DNA from: Quercus robur
Taxonomy: Eukaryota > Streptophyta > Magnoliopsida > Fagales > Fagaceae
Direction of reading: 5' to 3'
Assembly: GCF_932294415.1 (NCBI RefSeq)
Contig: NC_065542.1
Coordinates: 48,139,942 to 48,203,941, forward strand
DNA length: 64,000 nt
The position numbers and the translations under genes are program-made. Shown piece after piece: positions 17,976 to 55,090 of this stretch; position 1 is the stretch's first letter, and every line of letters starts with the position of its first letter. The notes under the pieces are model-generated. The model was given only the letters and a program-made list of their open reading frames with translations, had not been told where the DNA came from and did not search any database.

Positions 17976-18141
17976 AAAGAGGGGCCATCTTCTGGAAGAA
18001 AATGTCTTATTATCTCCACTAACAAGGTGGTAGTGAGCAAATAAGTCAAGAAATGAATCCACTTGCCAAGTCCACTCCTCAGCCTATTAAAAAGGGCCTT
18101 ATGAAATGAATCTTGGTGTGAGCTTGCTACAAAGGAGAAGT
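17601..18141 (+). promoter_or_regulatory. Upstream region of DUF26 gene I1
   Basis: It contains a tRNA-derived SINE-like block at about 17805-17895 (box B-like ggcttgaatcc), a long A-run at 17940-17973, and a TATA-like cctattaaaaagg (18084-18096) about 50 bases before the chosen start. This TATA-like phrase with its flanks (cagcct...ccttatgaaat) is kept upstream of every DUF26 copy in the window. Confidence 0.5.
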
Positions 18142-18903
18142 ATGACTTTGAATTACAAAATTCTTCTCTTCCTAGCTCTATGCATTTGTAATTCTGAATC
18201 TGCAGATCCCTTGGGGCAGTTTTGCAATATTGGTAGTGGTAGCCAAATATCAGCTAATATTGATCGCTTATTAGCTGAATTGGTTTCCAAAACCCCCTCC
18301 TATGGTTTTATTGCTACTTCATATGGTAAAAACCCATATCAAGTTTTTGGCCTGGCTCAATGTAGAGGTGATGTGAGCAGTACAGACTGCTCAAGTTGCA
18401 TCCAAGATGCAGCAAAGCAAATCCGCCAACGTTGTCCCTACCAAGCCGATGCAAGAATTTGGTATGACTATTGCTTTTTACGTTATAACACTAAAAACTT
18501 CACTGGAGAAATTGATACATCTAATGGTATATTATATGGGAATGTGGAAACTGTAACTGATCCTGATACTTTTAACAAAGAACTAGAAACTCTGTTTGAT
18601 CAGATTAGAGCACAAGCTGTTGAGACTAGGAATGAAGGGCTTGGGAAAGGTAAGACCAAGTTGTCAACATTTGTGACACTCTATGCATTGGTGCAATGCA
18701 CAAGAGACCTGGCTTTGGTAGATTGTGCGCAGTGTCTGGCTGTTGCTGCGGGAAATTTTGAAAAATTTTGCAAAGACCGTAAAGGATGCAGAGTTCTATA
18801 TAGCAGTTGTTATGTCCGATATGAGCTCTATCCATTCTTCTTTCCTCTTATTTTCAAGCCAAACCATACTCTGGCTGATACTGTTATGGCCATACTGCCA
18901 TAG
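18142..18903 (+). CDS. Cysteine-rich repeat secretory protein (DUF26/Gnk2), type I copy I1
   Basis: Single exon, 253 residues. A signal peptide (MTLNYKILLFLALCICNSES) is followed by two DUF26 domains with the C-X8-C-X2-C signature: CRGDVSSTDCSSC in the first and CTRDLALVDCAQC in the second. There is no transmembrane or kinase part, so it belongs to the secreted CRRSP38-like class, not the CRK receptors. Gnk2 proteins act in the apoplast; ginkbilobin binds mannose and inhibits fungi, but the role of this one is unknown. An ATG 12 codons upstream (18106) is in frame, but type II copies lack it, so I take the inner ATG, which gives a clean signal peptide. Compared with copy I3 it lacks a few residues after the first cysteine (FCN-IGSGS). 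The frame is intact. Confidence 0.92.
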   Translation: MTLNYKILLFLALCICNSESADPLGQFCNIGSGSQISANIDRLLAELVSKTPSYGFIATSYGKNPYQVFGLAQCRGDVSSTDCSSCIQDAAKQIRQRCPYQADARIWYDYCFLRYNTKNFTGEIDTSNGILYGNVETVTDPDTFNKELETLFDQIRAQAVETRNEGLGKGKTKLSTFVTLYALVQCTRDLALVDCAQCLAVAAGNFEKFCKDRKGCRVLYSSCYVRYELYPFFFPLIFKPNHTLADTVMAILP

Positions 18904-21900: not shown

Positions 21901-24040
21901 TCACGGGTCACTGGCGAGTTGATTGAGTTGCGAAAATAGCTAGCACAACTGGCACATGACTCTTCAACTTCCATAGCTGGCACTTGAATCTTCAGCTTCT
22001 GGCATGTGCTCCTTAGTGACTGTTAGTTGTCTTGATCAAATCTCCACCACTTAATACTAAACCCATTACAAATAAATCTCACAAAAATACAAGGAAATAA
22101 ATTTATGCAATTTCAACAATTTTTGTCATGGAATAAGCCAATACTAATGTTATGAAAAAAATCATAACTTAACAAGTTTGTTTGGAAATAGAATTTTCTA
22201 ATTCCTATTTGGGGTATTACAATTTCTATGTACGTGAATCATTCATTCAAGTTGAGCAATTTTCCCTTTCTCTCATAGCAAAAGCTTGGGTGTATCAATT
22301 TGATTTCGGACCCCTCCTCTAAAGCTAAGAACGAGCTTTTCTAAGAGAAACCATATGTCATATGTGCAATGGAAGTTAATTTGAGATGAGTAGTTTTTGA
22401 AGGAGACTTAATAGGTGTTAGACAAATTTTCTTTTGTTCATAGGGAATTGGAATGAGCTAGAACACTACGAGATAGGGCTTGAATTGTACCTGGTTTAGG
22501 CCAGTCCATATCTTAATTTTGCCCTCTGCTCTAACTAGAGTTGGGCTCGAGCCCATGCCTTAATGTATCCCTTTCCTTTTGTGGAATAAACTTAATGATT
22601 ATTCAAAAAAAAAAAAAAATCTACTCATAGCAAAAAGAATATAGGTTGACACATTTAATGATGAAAAATTCTTAGGTAATCTTAGAGTATGGTGAAATAG
22701 ACCCTACCATGAGTGTGAGGGGAGGAAGCACTGTTTTTCGTGCTCTAGGAGTACCTAAGTATTACTCTTCAATAAGCTTCATTCAAACACAAAATGGATT
22801 ATGTGCTTCATCAATCTTTTCATTGACTTTACTTGTTTTTGCCAACTATCCTTAACTTTTCAAAATTAATATTTCGTTTGTTCTTATAGAAAACGAACTT
22901 GTTTTCTTGTATTAGGTTGCATGCCGGAGAACAAGTTAGAAAACATTTTTTATTGTGTTGGATTGTATGAGAAAATCATTGATATTTCTTGTAATCCCAA
23001 ATAACAATATGAATATTTTATTAACAAAAATAAACTCTAGATATTTGTGAGTCTCAAATGGGAAAACACATAACAAATTTTGGAATTGATACAAAAAAAT
23101 GAAAAAGTGGTTGGTTTGAGCAAAATAGGTTATTTTTTTGGGGGGGGGGGGGGGAGGGGGGAGTCAATGGTCAATAAAATTATCAGTCAGTAATAGATCA
23201 ATGTTTGGTTTGTGGAGAAAGAGAAAGGGGGCCAAGAGAGATTAAGAAAGGGTGCAATATTGTGCACATGCAAATCACTTTCAATGGTTGAGATTAAAAA
23301 CACTTTTAATCTCAATCTTTAGAAGGATCTATATATATATATATATATAATATGGCTCCAAGTAAATATTCTTGGCTACACTCCTAGTTAATGCTACCTT
23401 TTCATTTGCTTCATCACTCCGTAGAATCTTTTCATTGAAACTAGAGACGTAGCCTAGTAAATACTCAAACGTCTTTCTTGGTTATCATTTTTGAGGTATA
23501 TATGTAGTTGCTAGTTGGTTTCATGTGTCTCTATCCCCCTATGAAGTGATTGACAGACAATATGCTCAATTTGGCAAATGAACCCACCATGCTTTGTTTC
23601 CACCATATTATTGCTAACCCCTTCAATGTGATTTGGAACATCCAACACATGATCTCATCAAGCACCACTTGAAAGGTCTTCGGTTTCGTCAACGGCTTTT
23701 AATTGGGGCATCTTGAATGTAGGATATCCCATGACTTCTTATGTAAAGGGAAGCAAGTAATGTTTATAACACCAAGTTGTTTTACACAGTTTTGTATACA
23801 TGTGAAAAAAAACCTTTAAGTCAAGAGACTTTAAGTCACTATTACAGTTGCTTTTTCATGTGTGTATGTGTGTGTGCACACGCAACCGGTGTAAACTTAG
23901 AAACATGAATTTAAATCATAATGTTAGTTGTTTTTTTGTGTGTGTAAAACTGAGTAAAATAATGACTGTGCAACAAGTTTAACCCTAAGGTTAATAGTAA
24001 TGCGTCATAATAAAACTAGGCATTTGTTACCCTTAGGGCA
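18904..24040. repeat. Array tail module, copy T1
   Basis: This matches the segment after gene I3 (36.85-45.24 kb) and, for its central part, T0. It holds the 3' region of I1, repeats with gacccgttttt-type words (20306-20990), a solo LTR (21159-22174), the retroposon-like poly-A block (22430-22620), a G-run (about 23140-23161), the gypsy gag fragment (23370-23740) and a TG-rich patch (23850-23885). No intact gene is seen. Confidence 0.8.
21159..22174 (-). mobile_element. Solo LTR (probably Copia), fossil
   Basis: On the minus strand it starts TGTTAAGTTATG and ends TTGAACTTTCA. Near-identical five-base target duplications flank it (GGTTT at 21154-21158, AGTTT at 22175-22179). The gene-free module T0 has the uninterrupted target (ggtttgtttgg). 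The 1,016 bases contain no coding domain, so only a single LTR is left. The assignment to Copia rests on general wording and is uncertain. Confidence 0.75.
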
Positions 24041-29009: not shown

Positions 29010-30231
29010 TAAAACTAGACCTAATAGTACACGTAGAAGTTATGATATTCATTCAACAACTTTGGCATTCCCTGGTAACACGTATGGTAGCGTCTAGTCA
29101 AAATTATACACGGCCATGGACCATGGTTTGCACAACAGTCAGCACCATATAATTAATCAATGATCTGTGATTGACATCAATTGTGCATTCTGAACCGCCG
29201 AAAAAATCAATCACTTTTAAGACTAGATTGGTCTTCTTACGTGATTTTTCAAATTTTGTTTGTATGTTCAATAGGATTATGATCACCTCAATAATTTGTT
29301 TAAGAACTAACTGTACATGTGAAATTCTTTAAAAAAAAATAGTAATTATAGTTAACTTTTCAATGTTTTCATCATTAAATTATTTGTGCCACTCAAACAA
29401 AAAGATACGTTTTGGGGCACTAATTATTATCATTATTTTTAATTAACAAGTACAAATTTGGCCGAAGTCAACAAGTTTATCCTTCTGGCTGTCGCTAATC
29501 TATTAAAAATATGTAATATATTTTGTGGGTAATTTGTTTGAGTTCCAATGACTAAATAGCTAAAAAAAAGGCACTAGTGGTGTTGTTCTGTGACATCAGA
29601 GAGCTAATCAACTACTTAGAAATCTTCAAATTTGTTAAAAGTTTTGTAGCTCAGTTGCATTAAATGGTTCTCTCTATGTAGTGAACATAGGTTTGAATTC
29701 CTTTTTCCTGCTTATAGTAAGAATTTTTTTTAAATTTATTTATTTTTGTTTTTAGGTATGATAGGACAATTGTAGAATTTGCTATATGATGATTATTCAC
29801 CATCTCATGCAAAGATATTAATTAATGGGTTTATTTATTTTATAGGTAGGGTTTGAATCCAACTGGCTCTTGCTCAATGACAAAATAACTTTTTGATTGA
29901 GTTAACTGTAACCCGCAAGAATCTTTGAACTTTGATAATGCTCTTGTTTTCTTGCAGCCAGCTTCTTCCAAGCATAGTCTAACATATGACTATTACATAA
30001 AAATACAACGGTCGGTATTAGGAGCTAACTATAACAAAAAAAACTAAGAGGGACGACCTTCTAGAAAAAGTATCTTATTTTTTCCACTCACAAGGTGGTA
30101 GTAAGCAAACAAGTCAAGAATGTCTGCTGTGGTATCCTCACATCACATGAATGATGCATCCACTTCTCAGCCTACTAAAAATAGGACCTTATGAAATTTA
30201 ACTTTACGTGAGCTTGCTACAAAAGAGAAGT
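29010..30231 (+). promoter_or_regulatory. 5' flank of DUF26 gene II2
   Basis: This is closely matched by 47525-48742 upstream of II4 and, in part, 15165-16797. It includes a tRNA-derived SINE-like block (29641-29725) with an A box-like TAGCTCAGTTGC and a B box-like GGTTTGAATTC about 32 bases later. A TATA-like cctactaaaaatagg lies about 60 bases before the start codon. Confidence 0.55.
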
Positions 30232-31008
30232 ATGAATTTGAATTACAAAATTCTTCTCTTACTAGCTCTCTGCATTTGCAATGCTGAATCTGAAGACCCC
30301 TCGGGTCAGTTTTGCAATACAGACACTAATATTGGTAGTGGTAGCCCAATATCAGCTAATATTGATCGCTTATTAGCTGAATTGGTTTCCAAAACCACCT
30401 CCAATGGTTTTATTGCTACTTCCTATGGGAAAAACCAATACCAAGTTTTTGGTCTTGGACAATGTAGAGGGGATGTGAGCAGCACAGACTGCTCAAGTTG
30501 CATCCAAGATGCAGCAAAGAAAATCCGCCAACGCTGTCCTAACCAAGCTGAAGCAAGAATTTGGTATGACCATTGCTTTTTACGTTACAACAATAAAAGC
30601 TTCCTTGGAGAAATTGATACATCATTTGGTATATTCTATTGGAATGTGGAAAATGTAACCGATCCTAAAAATTTTAACAAAGAACTAGGTACTCTGATGG
30701 ATCAGATTAGAGCACAAGCTGCTGAGACAAAGAATAAAGGGCTTGGAAAAGGTGAGGCCAAGTTGTCATCATTTGTGACACTATATGCATTGGTGCAATG
30801 CACGAGAGACCTATCTCAGATAGATTGTGCACAGTGTCTGGCCATTGCTGTGGGCAATTTTGAAACCTTTTGTAAAGACCGGAAAGGATGCAGAGTTCTA
30901 TATAGCAGTTGTTATGTCCGATATGAGCTCTATCCATTTTTCTTTCCTCTTGATTCAAAGTCAAACAGTACCATGGCTGATACTCTTATGGCTATAGTTT
31001 ATCCATAA
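30232..31008 (+). CDS. Cysteine-rich repeat secretory protein (DUF26/Gnk2), type II copy II2
   Basis: Single exon, 258 residues: signal peptide (MNLNYKILLLLALCICNAES), first DUF26 domain with CRGDVSSTDCSSC, second with CTRDLSQIDCAQC, and a tail ending MADTLMAIVYP. Type II hallmarks against type I are ESEDPSGQFCNTDTNIGSGS, YDHCFLRYNNKSF and LSQID. No kinase or membrane segment follows, so the product should be secreted to the apoplast, as in the CRRSP38-like group. The only in-frame ATG near the 5' end is 30232; the sequence upstream of it differs from type I. AATAAA at about 31091 is a likely poly-A signal. It is the only intact type II gene in the window. The relic Copia LTR starts about 120 bases after the stop. 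Confidence 0.93.
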   Translation: MNLNYKILLLLALCICNAESEDPSGQFCNTDTNIGSGSPISANIDRLLAELVSKTTSNGFIATSYGKNQYQVFGLGQCRGDVSSTDCSSCIQDAAKKIRQRCPNQAEARIWYDHCFLRYNNKSFLGEIDTSFGIFYWNVENVTDPKNFNKELGTLMDQIRAQAAETKNKGLGKGEAKLSSFVTLYALVQCTRDLSQIDCAQCLAIAVGNFETFCKDRKGCRVLYSSCYVRYELYPFFFPLDSKSNSTMADTLMAIVYP

Positions 31009-34925: not shown

Positions 34926-36084
34926 ATAAAATAAAATAAAAAAATAAAAAAATTGTAATCATAGTTAAATTTTCACAACGAAATTCTCTATGCAACTCAA
35001 GGAAAAAAAAGTGTTTTGCTGCACTAATTACTTTTACAGATTGACAAGTACAGATTAGGCATAAGTTGATGAGTTTATCCTTGTGTCTTCTGCTAAAGCT
35101 ATTAAAAGTTTTTAAACACATTAGATTGCTAATTAGCCAATCATAAATCTTCGAATTTTTCAAGATTGTTTCAGTTTGGTGGCATTTCTTGGCTCTCTCT
35201 ATCTGGAAAACCTAGTTTTGAATCCCCCTCCCCTACTTATTGTAAGAAGAAATCCTTGATTTATTTATTTATTTATTAGATCTGGATCCATTTGGATTGA
35301 ATTTATTGTTGCTGAAACTGAAAACTGAAAACACTGTAACAAAATAATTTTTAAATGTGTAAATAGTAACGTGAGACCCATTTTTAATATTTTTTTCTGA
35401 ATAAAGTGGCTGTGGGTCCCATGAACAGTATATAAACAGTACTGCTACAGTGTATGAACAATACTGTTACAGTGTTAATTGTCCCCTGCCTTTCTGCAAA
35501 ACGCGTGAAATGATGAAAAAAAAAGAAGAAAAAAAAAGGGAGGAACACAGACACAGACGTAGCTTTCAGCCCAATCCAAACGGCACCCTGATAACATATG
35601 ACATTTGCTTCATAATGATTGCTCATTATTATTAGACTAAAACACTATGAATTTATTTTTGGTGTTGGTGGAATTTGAACCCAACCACCCTAGGCACTTG
35701 TTTGATGGCAAGAAATTTTACTAGTTTTTCTTTGAGATGATAGACTTTACTGGTTAGCTAATTGAAACATGCAAGAATCTTTGAATTTTGATAATGCTCT
35801 TTTTGATGGCAGCCAGCTTCTTCACAGCATAGCCAACTTAAGACTGTATCATAACGTTCAAAAAAGTCTTTATTATGAAGCAACTATAACAAAACAAAAA
35901 CAAAAAAAACAAAGAGGGGCCATCTTCTGGAAGAAAATGTCTTATTATCTCCACTAGTGAGCAAATAAGTCAACAATGTCTGCTTTGGTGTCCCCATGCA
36001 TCCACTTGCCAAGTCCACTCCTCAGCCTAATAAAAAGGGCCTTATGAAATGAATCTTGGTGTGAGCTTGCTACAAAGGAGAAGT
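34926..36084 (+). promoter_or_regulatory. Upstream region of DUF26 gene I3
   Basis: Holds a tRNA-derived SINE-like block (about 35165-35255), a MITE (35284-35588), and a TATA-like cctaataaaaagg shortly before the leader. The leader keeps the ATGAATCTTGGTGTGAGC upstream in-frame start seen before I1 and I5. Confidence 0.5.
35284..35588. mobile_element. Tourist-like MITE upstream of I3
   Basis: Imperfect inverted ends: GGATCCATTTGGATTG on the left, CAATCCAAACGGCACCC on the right. The interior shares tgctgaaactgaaaac and cgtgagaccc words with the MITE at 15734-15937. The sister unit I5 (near 55510-55530) reads across without it. The target duplication is not clear. Confidence 0.55.
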
Positions 36085-36852
36085 ATGACTTTCAATTACA
36101 AAATTCTTCTCTTACTAGCTCTATGCATTTGTAATGCTGAATCTGCAGATCCCTTGGGGCAGTTTTGCAATACAGACACTAATATTGGTAGCCAAATATC
36201 AGCTAATATTGATCGCTTATTAGCTGAATTGGTTTCCAAAACCCCCTCCAATGGTTTTATTGCTACTTCATATGGTAAAAACCAATATCAAGTTTTTGGC
36301 CTGGCTCAATGTAGAGGGGATGTGAGCAGAACAGACTGCTCAAGTTGCATCCAAGATGCAGCAAAGCAAATCCGCCAACGTTGTCCCAACCAAGCCGATG
36401 CAAGAATTTGGTATGACTATTGCTTTTTACGTTATAACACTAAAAGCTTCATTGGAGAAATTGATACATATAATGGTATATTATATGGGAATGTGGAAAA
36501 TGTAACTGATCCTGATACTTTTAACAAAGAACTAGGAACTCTGTTTGATCAGATTAGAGCACAAGCTATTGAGACTAGGAATGAAGGGCTTGGGAAAGGT
36601 AAGACCAAGTTGTCAACATTTGTGACACTGTATGCATTGGTGCAATGCACAAGAGACCTGGCTCTGGTAGATTGTGCACAGTGTTTGGCCATTGCTGCGG
36701 GAAATTTTGAAAAATTTTGCAAAGACCGGAAAGGATGCAGAGTTCTATATAGCAGTTGTTATGTTCGATATGAGCTCTATCCATTTTTCTTTCCTCTTGA
36801 TTCAAAGCCAAACGATACTCTGGCTGATACTGTTATGGCCATACTACCATAG
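36085..36852 (+). CDS. Cysteine-rich repeat secretory protein (DUF26/Gnk2), type I copy I3
   Basis: Single exon, 255 residues. Signal peptide about residues 1-21 (MTFNYKILLLLALCICNAES), first DUF26 domain with C76-X8-C85-X2-C88 (CRGDVSRTDCSSC) and further cysteines at 28, 100 and 113, second domain with C188-X8-C197-X2-C200 (CTRDLALVDCAQC) and cysteines at 212, 218 and 225. Possible N-glycosylation sites are N139 (NVT) and N243 (NDT). No membrane anchor or kinase is present. The protein is very close to I1, differing in the loop after the first cysteine and at scattered positions, so both derive from one recent duplication. By family it is an apoplastic protein, possibly carbohydrate-binding or antifungal; this is not shown by sequence. 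The inner ATG is preferred over the one at 36049 because type II genes share only the inner one. Confidence 0.93.
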   Translation: MTFNYKILLLLALCICNAESADPLGQFCNTDTNIGSQISANIDRLLAELVSKTPSNGFIATSYGKNQYQVFGLAQCRGDVSRTDCSSCIQDAAKQIRQRCPNQADARIWYDYCFLRYNTKSFIGEIDTYNGILYGNVENVTDPDTFNKELGTLFDQIRAQAIETRNEGLGKGKTKLSTFVTLYALVQCTRDLALVDCAQCLAIAAGNFEKFCKDRKGCRVLYSSCYVRYELYPFFFPLDSKPNDTLADTVMAILP

Positions 36853-39158: not shown

Positions 39159-40265
39159 TGAAAGTTTAATTAGTGTGTAAAACACTAGTAAATGTTTAGA
39201 CTTCCAATTTCAAATTAACCAACACAAGCTTATATTCAAACAATATATGTGCGGAAAATGAAATATAAACAATACCCAATTTGGCAAAACTACTTTAACA
39301 CATAATTAATCACAAACACAGCATCAATTAATGGTTAAAGAGTAAGGAAAGAGAAATGCAAACACAAGGATAACACAGGCACGTGTTATCGAAGAGGAAA
39401 TCGAAGAACTCGGCGAAAAACCTCTCCACCGTCCTCCAAGCGGTAAAATGATCCACTAAAAAATAAAGTTGGGATACATGAATAGCAATAGACTCTCTAA
39501 GCCTAATCTACCCAATGCATCTAAGCTCTCTAAGTTTCTTGCTCCAACAAGGTTAAGCCTAACCGTGTCTTCTTCAGCTTTCCGATTCCCGCAATAAGCT
39601 CCATATTGCATCCGCCATCCTTGGCATCTTCCAATGCTTCCTAAGCTCCAAAAACACTTTCAACACTCTAAATGGGTGTGTGTTGTGTTTGGGTACAAAT
39701 ATCTTCTCAATGGGTATAACAATGGGAAAGGGAATGAGAAGAGACTACAAAGAGTTCTCTCTAAGAATGAGTAGCTCTCTCTCTAATAAGGTGGTTGTGT
39801 TGTAGAAACCTTTTTTTAGGGTTTTTCTCTCAATAGGCTCCTTGCCATTTCTGTGGATAATAAGGGTATATATAGTATAGGTGATGGAAAAATAGGTCAC
39901 ACTTAAAAATCCTCAAACTAGTGTTTTTCGTGGGTCACTGGTGGGTTGACTGAGTCGCAAAAAATAGCTGGCATAGCTATCACATGACTCTTCAACTTCC
40001 ATAGCTGGCACTTGACACTTCAGCTTCTGGCATGTGCTCCTCATGTGACTTTTAGCTATCTTGATCAAACTTCCACCACTTAATACTAAATCCATTACAA
40101 ATAAATCCCACAAAAATACAAGGAAATAAATTTATGCAATTTCAACAATTTTTCTCATGGAATAAGCCAAATTAGCCAATACTAATCAATATATTACTAA
40201 AAGCTGAAGCGTAGCGTTTAATGCTGCTGCGCTCACGTTGAGCCACGTCAACGTCCACGTCATCA

Positions 40266-40301
<36 letters not shown>

Positions 40302-40581
40302 CATTTTCTTATAATTATTTATAATTTTTTTTATTTCATATTTACACTTCTCCAACCTTTCTTCTTCCCTTACCTTTTCATCTCCCCACTACTTCTCTAA
40401 CCTTTCTCCTTCTCTCATTCTCTCACCTTCTCATCTCCCCACTACTCTTTACATTAATATCATTCTTCATCTTTCCCTTCATCTTCCTCTATTTTTGTCT
40501 CTTCTTATTCACACTTTCTTACTATAAATTTGTCACTATCTCATTCATTCCATGCATAATTTTTCCTTACAAAAAAAAGGT

Positions 40582-40632
<51 letters not shown>

Positions 40633-41659
40633 ATTTTTGAGTGGATTTTTATTTTTTATTTTTCTTGCATCTTCGTTTTAGGTTGATAATTTTTTATATT
40701 CTTTAATCTACTTTAGGTTAATGCGATTCAGTTCTCTCTCTCACTCTCTCTCTCTTAGATTGTCAAATGTTATCCTATTGCATTATAAAGGATTAAATAT
40801 AAAAATATAATATTATTCTAATACATAGCATGATTTGGATAATTTAATTTGGTAGCTACTGTAATTTGATAGCATGATTTTTATAGTGCTCAATTTAGAT
40901 GTTAAACAATGGGACTTTAATCATTTTTGTTTATTTTTTAATCCTTTGTGGTAGACAAAGTACTCTATAATGCAATTTATTTAGAGAAAAGCAAAGGTTG
41001 GCTAAACAAAAGTTATTGGATGAGAGACAAATTTTATCTTTCGCAATTTTACTTTAATTATTATTATTATTATTTTATAACAATGCATATATAAAAATTT
41101 AATTCTTAGATTTTGCTAATAATTGATTATTTGATAATATGTTTTGGGTGGACGAAATTACAATTTCCGCAAAGAAAATAACCTTAGTAGATTATAAATA
41201 ACAATTATTTTCCTAATTGGTTCAATTAATCATAGTTAAGTTTTATTAATTTTTTTAGTTACTTTTTTCAGTGTTTTGGATTGTAGGCAGAAAAAATAAG
41301 TTTGAGAAAGTTTGTTTAAAACTAAAAGAATAATTTCTAAATTTTATTTTCTTTTTAATGATTCACAAAATGTTATAAATAACTTTTATTAAAAAATAAA
41401 TATTTTCGTTAAATTGCCTTTTGAATTTTTGAGAAAAATTGCATATTTTTTTTCATTTTAGTACGACAAAAATTATTAAATTTATGATTTATGATTTATG
41501 ATTGTTTCTATATTACATTTATGATTATTCTTATAATGAATAAAAATATAATTACAAAATACATTACTCTTTATTAAATTAGTTTAAATTGTATAAAAAA
41601 AAATTAATAAAACTACCATAAAAATTATTATCATGCGCAACGCGCAGGTTTGTGGCTAA

Positions 41660-41690
<31 letters not shown>

Positions 41691-43421
41691 CCGAAACCTT
41701 TGGAGTTCCCACAATTTTCCACGTCATCACTATTTTCTTTTTCTTTTTATTTTAGATTCTTTTTATTTTTGGTTTAATTTTCCACGTCATCACTATTTTC
41801 TTTTTCTTTTGGATTCTTTTTATTTTTGGTTTTATATCTTATCAAGTATTACAATAGTTTAGTTTAAATAAAATTCTATTAGATATATGTTTCAAAAGCT
41901 TGAAAATAGCCTTTGGAGCTCCCATAATTTTCAACGTCATCACTATTTTCTTTTTCTTTTTCTTTTTCTTTTAGATTCTTTTTATTTTTGGTTTTATATC
42001 TTATCAAGTATTACAATAGTTTAGTTTAAATAAAATTCTATTAGATATATGTTTCAAAAGCTTGAAAATTCTATTTCAACTAAAATTCTATAACAAAAAT
42101 TTTCACAAATATAAACTTCTGCCAAGGTCGAAACCCTTCATACTCACTCAAATTTTCACAAAGAAAACACACATATCAAATTGAAGCCATAGCAGGAAGC
42201 AAGTTGATTCTTCAACGAGAACAAATCCTGTAGTACAAAGGCCACCTAATTGCTTTTAGTTTTGAACTTGATTGTCTTATTAACAACAAAGTCTATGAAT
42301 TGCAGTGATGGACAGCCGTCCACAAATAACATCTACGCAAGGGCTTGATGTTCTTCTTAATTATCTCATATAATTCTAGGAATTATTTTATTTAATTTTT
42401 TTTTGGAATTAATATATTTAGATGGTTGGCATAGCAGACAACGTAAAAACAATTTTCTGTCATTTATATTGCCTTCTGCATAACCCTATATCAATGTTGA
42501 AATGTTGTGTTTTACAACCATCTAATCTTAGTAACCAAACCCTGCACCTATGATTGTTTATGATTATTTTTGTTCATTGTTTGTAGTTTAAACCCATTAA
42601 AACTTATTGGCTGATGGTATTTCATGGTTTTTTTTTACCTTTACCTTTACTTTCAAGGTTGCTAGGAACACAACCTAACATGTGATTTTTTTTCATTGTT
42701 TAAAGTTTAGACCCATTAAAATTTAAAACTAATTACTTTATAGGTTCATGTACTTTTTTCTTCTTATTTTTCTCTTTTGAATAGTCATATATTTTGTGTT
42801 AGTTTTTGCAATATTTGAACATGTTTAGCAGATTTCAACAACTATACCATGTATTGTTCTTTTGAAGGTAATCAATTTTTCTTTTATATTTCTCTATTAT
42901 AAAATCATATATATATAGTTTTGTTTCAATAATTTATAGGATGTAAATCTTATGATTCCTTAATATTTTTTGGCCTTTTGGAAGTTTTAACATCTGACTT
43001 TTTGAGTTATATTTTTCTAATATCCAAAACTATCTGGAAAATTTCAATAATTATAACCATGAATTATTATTTTGAGTGTAACAAATTTTTCTCTTATATT
43101 TCTCTGTTGTGTAGTCACACACACACATATATTTTTATAATTTTTAAGCTCTTAATCTTTTGATTCTTTTCAATAGTTATAAGTTTATAGTCATGAACTA
43201 TTCTTTAATATTTTTCGTAAGTCATTGCACGTTCAAACAATGACTTCTTTATCAAATTGTAACACAAATTGAAGTTATACAAGAGCAATTCATGCAATAA
43301 TATAGTTTCTTAATCAATTTAAAATTTTATAAAATCAATTTAGTTTACCACATAAATAGGTAGGTTCCCGTGCATAGCACGGGTTGGCGACTAGTGTTAT
43401 GATAAAAATCATAACTTAACA
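39159..43421 (-). mobile_element. Solo LTR (probably Copia) holding a nested Helitron, fossil
   Basis: This is the sister of the solo LTR at 21159-22174, with the same flanks (ggttt before, agttt after). Without the Helitron it is about 1,054 bases. It contains no coding domain. Sharing the insertion site with T1 shows the LTR entered before T1 and T3 separated. Confidence 0.75.
40186..43394 (+). mobile_element. Composite non-autonomous Helitron, copy 1
   Basis: Starts TCAATATATTACTAAAAGC and ends TTGGCGACTAG, with a 7-base-pair hairpin (43367-43383, CCCGTGC-ATA-GCACGGG) 11 bases from the CTAG end. It sits between A and T; the sister LTR in T1 (22148-22150) reads actaatgttatg without it. It is two Helitrons joined tail to head. 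The first part (40186-41659) has its own hairpin (41634-41646) and CTAA end; the second (41660-43394) starts TCTATATAT and contains the phrase ccgaaacctttggagttccc. Microsatellites (CT, CA) lie at about 40583-40631 and a T-run at 40268-40301. About 81 bases are directly repeated (41826-41905 and 41989-42068). No Rep/helicase frame, so it depended on an autonomous partner. Confidence 0.9.
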
Positions 43422-49639: not shown

Positions 49640-51825
49640 TGTTAAGGATCGGATTTTCTATTTCCTACTTTAAAAACAATAATATTTGTTGTTAGGATTT
49701 TTAAGTGTTGGCTAATTCCATACCCAATGTAATTGTATTGCTGAGTTTTGATATTGTAATGTAAATAGTGGTAAGAATGACAAGCTTGGTTGTGCAAGAA
49801 TGAATGCTTGGCCTTGCGAAATTGAAAACCAAATAAAAACTTTCGGTAGAGTTTCTGTAGAGTCTTGGTCAACCAGAACCCTGTTACAAAAACTTTGATA
49901 TTTGCTTCAAGATTTGGTTGTGTAACCGCCTCTAACCCAAACCCTACTTATATAAAAACCCTATACCAACCCTAATTTTTTGAGAAGGAAGATTGCTATT
50001 AAAAAACAAAGAAAAATTATCTGTGAGTGTTCTTTATCTTCCAACTATCTCCAATTGAATTATTTATGAGAGGAGATTTCCACCCAAACACTAAGATCAC
50101 CTATTAAGTGTACTAGTCGCCAACCCATGCTATGCACGGGAACCTACCTATTTATGTGGTAAACTAAATTGATTTTATAAAATTTTAAATTGATTAAAAA
50201 ACTATATTATTGCATGAATTGCTCTTGTATAACTTCAATTTGTGTTACAATTTGATAAAGAAGTCATTGTTTGAACATGCAATGACTTACGAAAAATATT
50301 AAAGAATAGTTCATGACTATAAACTTATAACTATTGAAAAGAATCAAAAGATTAAGAGCTTAAAAATTATAAAAATATATGTGTGTGTGACTACACAACA
50401 GAGAAATATAAGAGAAAAATTTGTTACACTCAAAATAATAATTCATGGTTATAATTATTGAAATTTTCCAGATAGTTTTGGATATTACAAAAATATAACT
50501 CAAAAAGTTAGATGTTAAAACTTCCAAAAGGCCAAAAAATATTAAGGAATCATAAGATTTACATCCTATAAATTATTGAAACAAAACTATATATATATAT
50601 GATTTTATAATAGAGAAATATAAAAGAAAAATTGATTACCTTCAAAAGAACAATACATGGTATAGTTGTTGAAATCTGCTAAACATGTTCAAATATTGCA
50701 AAAACTAACACAAAATATATGACTATTCAAAAGAGAAAAATAAGAAGAAGAAAAAAGTACATGAACCTATAAAGTAATTAGTTTTAAATTTTAATGGGTC
50801 TAAACTTTAAACAATGAAAAAAAATCACATGTTAGGTTGTGTTCCTAGCAACCTTGAAAGTAAAAGTAAAGGGAAAAAAAAACCATGAAATACCATCAGC
50901 CAATAAGTTTTAATGGGTTTAAACTACAAACAATGAACAAAAATAATCATAAACAATCATAGGTGCAGGGTTTGGTTACCAAGATCAGATGGTTGTAAAA
51001 CACAACATTTCAACATTGATTTAGGGTTATGCAGAAGGCAATATAAATGACAGAAAATTGTTTTTACGTTGTCTGCTATGCCAACCATCTAAATATATTA
51101 ATTCCAAAAAAAAATTAAATAAAATAATTCCTAGAATTATATGAGATAATTAAGAAGAACATCAAGCCCTTGCGTAGATGTTATTTGTGGACGGCTGTCC
51201 ATCACTGCAATTCATAGACTTTGTTGTTAATAAGACAATCAAGTTCAAAACTAAAAGCAATTAGGTGGCCTTTGTACTACAGGATTTGTTCTCGTTGAAG
51301 AATCAACTTGCTTCCTGCTATGGCTTCAATTTGATATGTGTGTTTTCTTTGTGAAAATTTGAGTGAGTATGAAGGGTTTCGACCTTGGCAGAAGTTTATA
51401 TTTGTGAAAATTTTTGTTATAGAATTTTAGTTGAAATAGAATTTTCAAGCTTTTGAAACATATATCTAATAGAATTTTATTTAAACTAAACTATTGTAAT
51501 ACTTGATAAGATATAAAACCAAAAATAAAAAGAATCTAAAAGAAAAAGAAAAAGAAAAAGAAAAAGAAAATAGTGATGACGTTGAAAATTATGGGAGCTC
51601 CAAAGGCTATTTTCAAGCTTTTGAAACATATATCTAATAGAATTTTATTTAAACTAAACTATTGTAATACTTGATAAGATATAAAACCAAAAATAAAAAG
51701 AATCCAAAAGAAAAAGAAAATAGTGATGACGTGGAAAATTGAACCAAAAATAAAAAGAATCTAAAATAAAAAGAAAAAGAAAATAGTGATGACGTGGAAA
51801 ATTGTGGGAACTCCAAAGGTTTCGG

Positions 51826-51856
<31 letters not shown>

Positions 51857-52887
51857 TTAGTCACAAACCTGCGCGTTGCGCATGATAATTATTTTTATGG
51901 TAGTTTTATTAAATTTTTTTTTATACAATTTAAACTAATTTAATAAAGAGTAATGTATTTTGTAATTATATTTTTATTCATTATAAGAATAATCATAAAT
52001 GTAATATAGAAACAATCATAAATCATAAATCATAAATTTAATAATTTTTGTCGTACTAAAATGAAAAAAAAAATGCAATTTTTCTCAAAAATTCAAAAGG
52101 CAATTTAACGAAAATATTTATTTTTTAATAAAAGTTATTTATAACATTTTGTGAATCATTAAAAAGAAAATAAAATTTAGAAATTATTCTTTTAGTTTTA
52201 AACAAACTTTCTCAAACTTATTTTTTCTGCCTACAATCCAAAACACTGAAAAAAGTAACTAAAAAAATTAATAAAACTTAACTATGATTAATTGAACCAA
52301 TTAGGAAAATAATTGTTATTTATAATCTACTAAGGTTATTTTCTTTGCGGAAATTGTAATTTCGTCCACCCAAAACATATTATCAAATAATCAATTATTA
52401 GCAAAATCTAAGAATTAAATTTTTATATATGCATTGTTATAAAATAATAATAATAATAATTAAAGTAAAATTGCGAAAGATAAAATTTGTCTCTCATCCA
52501 ATAACTTTTGTTTAGCCAACCTTTGCTTTTCTCTAAATAAATTGCATTATAGAGTACTTTGTCTACCACAAAGGATTAAAAAATAAACAAAAATGATTAA
52601 AGTCCCATTGTTTAACATCTAAATTGAGCACTATAAAAATCATGCTATCAAATTACAGTAGCTACCAAATTAAATTATCCAAATCATGCTATGTATTAGA
52701 ATAATATTATATTTTTATATTTAATCATTTATAATGCAATAGGATAACATTTAACAATCTAAGAGAGAGAGAGAGAGAGAGAGAACTGAATCGCATTAAC
52801 CTAAAGTAGATTAAAGAATATAAAAAATTATCAACCTAAAGCGAAGATGCAAGAAAAATAAAAAATAAAAATCCACTCAAAAATTGT

Positions 52888-52947
<60 letters not shown>

Positions 52948-55090
52948 CTTTTTTTTCTAAGGAAAAATTATGCATGGAATGAATGAGATAGTGACAAATT
53001 TATAGTAAGAAAGTGTGAATAAGAAGAGACAAAAATAGATGAAGATGAAGGGAAAGATGAAGAATGATATTAATGTAAAAAGTAGTGGGGAGATGAGAAG
53101 GTGAGAGAATGAGAGAATGAGAAAGGTTAGAGAAGTAGTGGGGAGATGAAAAGGTAAGGGAAGAAGAAAGGTTGGAGAAGTGTAAATATGAAATAAAAAA
53201 AATTATAAATAATTATAAGAAAATGGAAAAAAAAAAAGAAAAAAAAAAAAGAAAAAGATGATGACGTGGACGTTGACGTGGCTCAACGTGAGCGCAGCAG
53301 CATTAAACGCTACGCTTCAGCTTTTAGTAATATATTGATTGGAGTGCTTTGTGAAACCACAGAGAAGGAAAAAAAACTTCAAGTAGCCTTGGAGTAATTT
53401 AGAGATTGGTTTTTTGGTTGGTGATCGACTTGCAGCGTTGGATTACTGTGAATATATGGTCTGGTTCAGCAGTTGCAGTAGGAGTGGGAAGCTCATATAC
53501 AATTTCTATTACATGCACTTGAGGGTCTTGTAGGTTAGCTTGTATCACAACTTCTTCATAGTGAATTTAATGAACTGGAGTAAGCCCCAGAGTGTTTTTC
53601 CTTATTGGGTTTTCACTTTGTGAACAATCTCTCGTCTCTTGTGTGTGACTGATAATTTAATTCTTTATCCACATTACAATTGTAATTGGTTAATTGATTA
53701 ATCGGACTATTAATTGCAAAATTAATAAAATTTGTTGTAAGCCGTACTTAGGGGTCTAAACACATTTTTCTATTAGTATCAGAGCTTAGGTTCAACTGTT
53801 AGGATTTATTTCCTCTGTGTGATCCTTAAACCCAGTTTGTCATGGATAAAGACAATCTTTGACTATCCTGCCATACTTTGACAGCAATTTTATGCATATT
53901 AGAAGTTTCGCATGTGTGCGGTCCTGAAATCCATTAATGATAGAGTTTGATTGTCAATGGATAAAGGGTGGACCAAACTAAGACACCCACTGAAAAGTAG
54001 AAGAAAGAAGAATCTGCTGAGTCTAATTTTAACAACAAGGCCGTGAATGCAGTATACAATGTCGTGTCCACAGATGAGTTAAGGATGATTTCGAATGTAG
54101 AAACTACTAAGCCTGGTCTATCCTAGAAACTACTCGTGAAGACACTAAAGCAGTCAAAAACTCCAAACTCCACCTGTTAACCACCAAGTTTGAAGCAGTG
54201 AACTCAAAGCTCAATCTAAGTGAGAAGATCAATGAACCTAAGATAGTTACGGAAGTCTTGAGATCTTTGCTTGAGAGGTCCCTTTCTAAGGTTATTACCG
54301 TAAAAAAGAGCAAAGACTTACAATCTCTTAATTTGTAGGGTCTTTGCAAACCTATGAACTCACCCTTGCGCCTTGCCCACGGTATGAAAAATAAGTCTAT
54401 AGTCCTAAAAAAAGTTAAAGAAGAAAACTCTGATTCATCCAATGATGATGGTGCTGAGGAAAACCTAGTTCTGTTAGGAAAAAACTTTAAAAATTTTCTG
54501 AAGTTCAAGAAGAATCAAAGACGATCTAAGGAACAAAAGGGTAAATAGTTAAGGAAAGAGTCCAGTGGGAGTTCTAGAGTTAAGAAAGACTCTAATTAGA
54601 GAAAGACTGAAAGAGTGGTACTCTCAAGGTTTGAAGTGCTTCAAGTGCAATGTCAATGGACACATCCATAAAAAGTGCCCAAATTATATCAAGTCCAAAG
54701 GTAAAGCTATGAATGCTACTTTGAGTAACTCTAAGAGTTCTAGTTCTGAGGACAATAGTGATAGTGAAGGAAACTTCATAGCTCCTACTGCTATAGCAGA
54801 AGTTGGCGATGGGAATTCTTGAGAATCCTCTAATGTAGATGATAAGGAAGACATAGTTTGAGGCTAGTGAGGGATCAGAAGATGAATCCAAAGGTAAGAA
54901 GGATCTTCAAATGGCTTACAATGAGCTGCTTGAGGATTGTTCTTATTATGCCAAGGCGGCTAAGGTTGCCCTTAAGAACTTAAATAAGTCTGAAACTAAG
55001 AACGCAGTTGTTGTAGATCAACTAAAACTGGCAAGGAAGGGGATAAAGCAGTAAAAGACTGATCTTGCTAGTTTTGTTGATAAAATTCAT
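49640..55090 (+). mobile_element. Copia (SIRE-like) relic, unit 3: 5' LTR, primer site, gag, fossil
   Basis: LTR from TGTTAAGGATCGG (49640) to about 53764, with a Helitron inside (50113-53338), so the LTR itself is about 900 bases. A primer-binding site of tRNA-Met type (TATCAGAGC) follows near 53777. The gag region (about 54060-54830) shows the UBN2-like wording KFEAVNSKLNLSEKI and a CCHC knuckle CFKCNVNGHIHKKC with a tail rich in S, E and D. No pol or 3' LTR remains. It is broken in many places. Age is greater than the array multiplication, as all three units have a piece. Confidence 0.8.
50113..53338 (-). mobile_element. Composite non-autonomous Helitron, copy 2 (opposite orientation)
   Basis: On the minus strand it begins TCAATATATTACTAAAAGC (53338) and ends GTTGGCGACTAG (50113), almost identical to copy 1 in its 3.2 kb and with the same internal tail-to-head junction (CTAA at 51860-51857, TC at 51856). 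The flanks are A on the 5' side and T on the 3' side, the usual AT target. Differences from copy 1 are mostly in repeat tracts (TG and AG repeats at 52885-52945, A-rich tract near 53228-53254). In the 3' hairpin one stem base differs (GCATGGG for GCACGGG). No coding capacity is seen. Confidence 0.9.

Follow-up and report, generated by a model that had tools for sequence, protein, structure and literature searches.

The question raised by this locus is whether two Helitrons that stand tail to head can spread as a single element, and how such a unit comes into being. The locus is a block at positions 40186–43394 of a 64,000-nucleotide stretch of the Quercus robur genome (assembly GCF_932294415.1, contig NC_065542.1; C38:48139942-48203941), referred to below as the window. 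A reading of the letters alone had proposed that the block is a composite of two Helitrons moving as one, and this proposal is upheld here: the block is very probably a composite non-autonomous Helitron that arose by one tail-to-head fusion of two elements, E1 and E2, and was then amplified from the 5′ end of E1 to the 3′ end of E2. Its ends and junction are precise, the joined form is present at at least 43 places at unrelated sites, the pair has moved as a unit, E2 exists as a discrete element on its own, and E1-type 3′ ends are real ends elsewhere in the genome.

Structure of the Composite and Its Two Copies in the Window

Both elements lie on the plus strand. E1 (40186–41659) opens with TC and closes with a hairpin and CTAA, and E2 (41660–43394) opens with TC and closes with a hairpin and CTAG. 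They abut in a CTAA/TC junction (41656–41661), with CTAA at 41656–41659, TC from 41660 and no base in between. The outer ends of the composite are those of a canonical plant Helitron: a 5′ TC, a 3′ CTRR, a hairpin, and insertion between A and T without target-site duplication, with A preceding the TC at 40186 and T following the CTAG at 43394. The outer hairpin of E2 (43367–43383, CCCGTGC-ATA-GCACGGG) sits about 10 bases before the 3′ end and has a 7-bp stem (DNA fold of −8.4 kcal/mol), matched by none of 200 shuffled sequences. The inner hairpin of E1 (41634–41646, TGCGC-AAC-GCGCA) has a 5-bp stem (−5.5 kcal/mol), and 24 of 200 shuffles were as good. The core of the inner hairpin occurs twice in the window against an expectation of 0.00, and the outer hairpin motif three times against 0.19; two of these three belong to the two copies of the composite and the other is the opposite-strand reading of the palindrome. 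BLAST found only short matching stretches between E1 and E2, the longest of about 63 bp at 78%, and the two are different elements. No stop-to-stop frame in the composite exceeds 118 amino acids, and the Rep-helicase by which an autonomous Helitron is recognized is lacking.

A second copy of the composite lies on the minus strand of the window (50113–53338), with E2 at 50113–51856 and E1 at 51857–53338. It is 98.39% identical to copy 1 from end to end (3231 alignment columns), the CTAA/TC junction is preserved, and the similarity ceases exactly at the outer ends, beyond which the flanks differ. The pre-insertion sequence of copy 1 is carried undisturbed by a paralogous unit of the window, T1 (22140–22155, plus strand), where it reads AATACTAA|TGTTATG with the junction at about 22147/22148. 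For copy 2, no empty site was found within the 64-kb window. The sequence-only reading had described the architecture correctly: two complete sets of Helitron ends with both hairpins, a CTAA end at 41659 with TC at the very next base, a second copy with the identical junction, and a precise empty site in T1 that fixes the outer ends.

Joined Copies across the Genome

The host genome (785,749,727 bases in 42 contigs) was searched with each element separately. The E1 query gave 49 matches and the E2 query 48, among the best 40 of 2632 and the best 40 of 1572 candidates, respectively. E2 lies downstream in 29 of the 30 extracted E1 loci, the remaining one (L046) being followed by a further E1 in a tandem array, of which L057 is another part. 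Similarly, 29 of the 30 E2 loci (L071–L100) have E1 upstream, with L091 as the exception; L041–L070 overlap with L071–L100 in the copies shown. Patterns for the four kinds of ends, allowing up to three mismatches, were located genome-wide at 574 places for the E1-like 5′ end, 485 for the E2-like 5′ end and 1775 for the E2-like 3′ end, and the reversed control patterns for these three ends had no match in the genome. The E1-like 3′ end is rarer than the other three, with 62 places.

E2 follows in 43 of these 62 places, as matched by position to E2 5′ ends, and the inner end of these joined copies is CTAA in 42 and CTAC in one. None of the 17 E1-type 3′ ends that finish with CTAG is joined to E2, and just two that finish with CTAA have no E2 behind them. 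One of the two (C2:74173546) lies in an E1 array, where eight bases from the start of E2 give way to a further E1. At the second place, L107, T comes next, and the similarity to E1 is about 91% over 213 bp. Within this sample the link between CTAA and E2 is complete, but it traces to one ancestor, and the copies do not count as independent evidence. An inner 3′ terminus with an altered CTAG is retained inside a multi-copy element, the feature by which multiple-termini Helitrons of the maize type are recognized. The inner TC is frequently missing from joined copies, where the sequence is then CTAATATATA. Further joined copies, which the sequence-only reading had named as support for a composite, are thus present; there are at least 43 in all, their sites are unrelated, and their outer ends are A|TC and CTAG|T.

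Movement of the Pair as a Unit

The flanks of these copies are those expected of transposed elements. T follows the 3′ end in all 30 E2 loci (29 composites and one solo copy), and the 3′ end itself is CTAG in 29 of them and TTAG in L076. On the 5′ side, A precedes E1 in 27 of the 30 E1 loci, the three exceptions being E1 units inside tandem arrays. The flanks of the 30 E2 loci have no stretch longer than 150 bp in common at E ≤ 1e-20, those of the 30 E1 loci have nothing in common apart from tandem-array E1 sequence, and the copies are spread over many contigs.

The two halves were also compared across 26 copies, with L087, L091, L096 and the partial L088 excluded. The nearest neighbour by E1 agrees with the nearest neighbour by E2 in 11 of the 26, a value reached in none of 10,000 permutations, and two mutual nearest pairs are common to E1 and E2, which 18 of 10,000 permutations reached. 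Mean pairwise differences, counting substitutions only, are 1.4% for E1 and 1.3% for E2, and the composite family appears young and star-like. In a tree of E1, the 30 copies of the composite lineage split from six CTAG-ending relatives with a support of 0.793. The agreement between neighbours indicates that both halves of each copy share one history. The assertion that the pair moved as a unit, at first based on the shared junction of the two window copies, now has behind it the A|T outer flanks, the unshared surroundings and the 11 of 26 shared nearest neighbours.

The insertion sites themselves display some regularity. ATAA starts 5–10 bases past the CTAG in 22 of the 30 E2 loci, versus 0–4 of 30 in 15 more distant control windows, and this excess is a 3′-side target preference sharper than the AT-rich bias reported for Helraiser. 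On the other side, the host sequence before L057, L064, L067, L068 and L104 is often TCAATCAA, repeating the first four bases of the element, TCAA; this may reflect a target bias or slippage at the 5′ end.

The Two Elements on Their Own

L091 is a solo E2 (C40:20687068-20688814, minus strand, 1747 bp) with A|TC at the position of the inner start and CTAG|T at its end. Its flanks, when joined, match three continuous places in the same region at 92, 89 and 84%. Two of these empty sites were read, and one is exactly AATTTAA|TTAAGAC while the other differs by one base beside the junction. Because of these empty sites, the 5′ end of E2 is real. Among ten other E2-type 5′ ends that were read, A|TC falls at the same position in seven. 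The solo E2 differs from the E2s of composites no more than they differ from one another, and it could be either of the parent type or a product released from the composite.

For E1 the picture is less direct. T is the next base at 14 of the 17 CTAG-ending E1-type places; in two of these 14 (L106 and L110) this T opens the TC of an adjoining E1-type Helitron, and in another two (L104 and L134) the sequence continues into a similar-looking repeat, many-copy in the case of L104. The solo E1-type elements, 92–94% identical to E1, end with CTAG and not CTAA. L103 and L104 have both ends and CTAG (1443 and 1464 bp, 92–93% to E1), and they are imperfect solo examples, since L103 lies behind another E1 piece and L104 enters the many-copy repeat. 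In L101, L102 and L105 (C2:80418548, C2:80503525 and C3:2851646), E1 with an intact CTAG is followed by common DNA of at least 1 kb at about 99%, and the 5′ flanks upstream of the TC differ. The three are a second bypass lineage of E1, not solo copies.

The sequence-only reading had expected each part to occur alone with A/T flanks, and would have regarded the block as a single Helitron if the parts never occurred alone or the inner pair was used as an end nowhere. The inner TC is used as an end, as the solo E2 begins exactly there. Occurrence alone is borne out for E2, by L091 and its empty sites, and for E1-type 3′ ends standing alone in the CTAG form, and not for a solo E1 of the CTAA lineage.

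Several other arrangements of these elements were encountered. L048, L106, L110 and L128 are further exact tail-to-head Helitron joins, with CTAA/TC ahead of a composite in L048 and CTAG/TC in the others. Composites at C37:2736572-2742403 and C4:81815058-81819603 contain extra E1 units that break off at base 1360 and continue into the next E1 close to its beginning; the E1/E1 joint is identical at the two loci and the numbers of units differ, and this rearranged composite seems to have moved. Finally, other 5′ duplications of E1, as E1 arrays or as pieces of 315 or 355 bp, precede the composite at C2:74169391-74175028, C40:8972078 and C37:55183029.

Origin of the Composite and Alternative Explanations

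The most likely course of events would start with a single encounter of E1 and E2, in which one inserted at the end of the other. E2 may have landed in the A|T between a CTAA-ending E1 and the host T, a canonical landing made possible because CTAA and the following host T constitute an A|T target; E1 may equally well have landed in the A|T directly before the TC of E2. Rep-helicase supplied in trans would nick at the 5′ TC of E1, the strand would be peeled through the weak 3′ signal of E1 and released at the strong hairpin and CTAG of E2, and the resulting 3.2-kb circle would then insert at A|T sites. Every joined copy seen would descend from the single fusion event. Rep-domain genes are plentiful in the genome, with 126 matches to PF14214. 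Solo E1s of the CTAA lineage were not seen beside the 43 joined copies, and the inner terminator accordingly looks inert or nearly so. Their absence places a 95% upper bound of about 7% on the solo share, assuming that solos persist and are equally findable. The earlier suggestion of read-through of the first 3′ end, with the 3′ end of E2 used as the terminator, is supported, but the block now behaves as one element and not as two with occasional read-through.

Four other explanations have to be weighed. If E1 and E2 were two still-working Helitrons, the inner terminator would be active and would have to be bypassed anew for every further composite. An exact inner hairpin and end are indeed found in 25 of the 43 joined copies, and bypass of intact ends does occur (PMC4778049). 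However, termination at the Helraiser-like rate of about 88% predicts that CTAA solos outnumber the 43 joined copies, whereas none is seen and the bound, on the assumptions just given, is near 7%, so this explanation is improbable. A single Helitron with chance inner signals, whose central CTAA/TC was never an end, would accord with one solo E2 and no solo E1 of the composite lineage beside 43 joined copies, as well as with the frequent loss of the inner TC. It is refuted for the E2 5′ end by the solo copy, which starts exactly at that TC and has empty sites in two paralogues; the A|TC at seven of ten other E2-type 5′ ends and the T after 14 of 17 CTAG-bearing E1-type 3′ ends also speak against it, and we consider it very unlikely.

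The joint might also mark where the circle of a single element closed, in copying that ran past one full turn. Helitron circles make perfect head-to-tail joints (PMC4778049) and tandem E1 arrays are present in this genome, but the dissimilar E1 and E2 have separate relatives and separate ends. A rolling-circle multimer is excluded as the origin of E1/E2, where it is scarcely credible, and is possible for the E1 arrays. Spread of the copies by segmental duplication would suit a window that is a tandem gene array with duplicated units. It is hardly conceivable in view of the empty site of copy 1 in T1, the flanks that share nothing beyond tandem-array E1 sequence, and the dispersal over many contigs.

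A number of observations weigh against the composite interpretation or narrow its basis. The DNA searches scored the best 40 of 2632 candidates for E1 and 40 of 1572 for E2, and the pattern searches list up to 100 places per pattern. No solo E1 of the CTAA lineage is present among the 62 E1-type 3′ ends, and for this reason the composite's own inner 3′ end has never been seen in use. The solo E2, being as close to the composite E2s as they are to one another, may have come out of the composite rather than given rise to it. The E1 and E2 distances correlate weakly in a Mantel test with 20 copies (r 0.32, 201 of 10,000 permutations) and not significantly with 26 (r 0.20, 987 of 10,000). The tree is star-like, with a clade support of only 0.79, and the PF14214 helper genes are not linked to the E1/E2 ends. 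Selective decay of the inner end is unsupported: the inner hairpin and end are kept exactly in 25 of 43 joined copies and the outer end in 32 of 43 (Fisher p 0.17).

A broader proposal, which we put forward tentatively and regard as rather doubtful, is that CTAA ends serve as docking sites where the next Helitron lands tail to head, so that elements grow by whole-element concatenation under a one-base switch from CTAG to CTAA. The CTAA would remake an A|T with the host T, the AT-rich 3′-side motif would remain behind it, and the pair would be copied as one because a CTAA end with a short hairpin terminates poorly. In L048, a composite sits directly behind another CTAA end, which fits this proposal. 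CTAA is not required, however, because L106, L110 and L128 join at CTAG/TC and a CTAG end has also been bypassed.

Relation to Known Helitrons

Bat and maize have already provided examples of stacked Helitrons, of end bypass and of inner 3′ ends that are damaged, and the oak composite is a well-resolved case of this known kind. Of the maize helAs, 28.7% have multiple terminal structures, and for the multi-copy helitron_mc2 a passage through inner pseudo 3′ ends, in which the CTAG is damaged, was proposed (Dong et al. 2011, PMC3288121). The composite resembles helitron_mc2 in its one 5′ end and in passage through an inner 3′ end with a damaged CTAG, here CTAA. In contrast, the maize path was reconstructed via nested insertions and involves three 3′ ends, while the oak composite consists of two complete elements in exact contact, its inner 5′ end is proven by the solo copy and the empty sites of that copy, and its joined copies have been counted across the genome. 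A head-to-tail Helitron pair at maize r1 was explained by consecutive insertions (Du et al. 2008, PMC2267711). It likewise consists of two dissimilar Helitrons, with the second TC directly after the first CTRR. It is, however, one locus, for which the excerpted report does not describe movement as a unit, and its joint is CTAG/TC (G/T) instead of the CTAA/TC (A/T) found here.

Helraiser reads through an intact end in approximately 11.7% of events (Grabundzija et al. 2016, PMC4778049). Helraiser and the bat Helitrons share with the composite the bypass of an end with capture of downstream DNA and 5′ ends that abut the 3′ end of another Helitron, and Helraiser also has an AT-rich target bias that is strongest on the 3′ side. 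The bypass in that system takes host DNA or a marker, and an amplified two-Helitron unit is not described in the excerpts of that report. Self-insertion was proposed to yield composite Helitrons in Fusarium FoHeli (PMC5148889), in which several 5′ ends on one element recall the E1 arrays described above; unlike the oak elements, FoHeli is fungal and non-canonical, with mostly short 5′ duplications. A case just like the E1–E2 composite was not found in the open-access literature, most subscription papers lying outside the search.

The composite shows in full resolution, and in a natural setting, how Helitrons gain DNA by the bypass route, the DNA gained from downstream being in this case another Helitron. 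A stable family has resulted, whose joined copies can be counted within one genome alongside solo copies and empty sites, and it sets a rough ceiling (about 7%, on the assumptions given above) on how often the inner end halts transposition. Helitron finders that stop at the first hairpin and CTRR would split the composite family in two.

Other Features

A lead in a viral sequence collection was followed and dropped: the pattern ATGCGCAACGCGCAGG was present in 40 contigs, and the 40 contexts read had no Helitron sequence around the match. Further scans of viral contigs, and one scan of genome contigs, gave no match. Within copy 1, E2 carries 5′ subterminal repeats with CCACGTCATCA-like motifs in three partial copies (41697–42069, plus strand). 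The window as a whole is a plant gene array with duplicated units, in which three long frames match Stress-antifung/DUF26 (PF01657); the cysteine-rich DUF26 (Stress-antifung) tandem array lies at 18091–18903, 30202–31008 and 36034–36852. Further frames in the window match Ras and tRNA synthetase.

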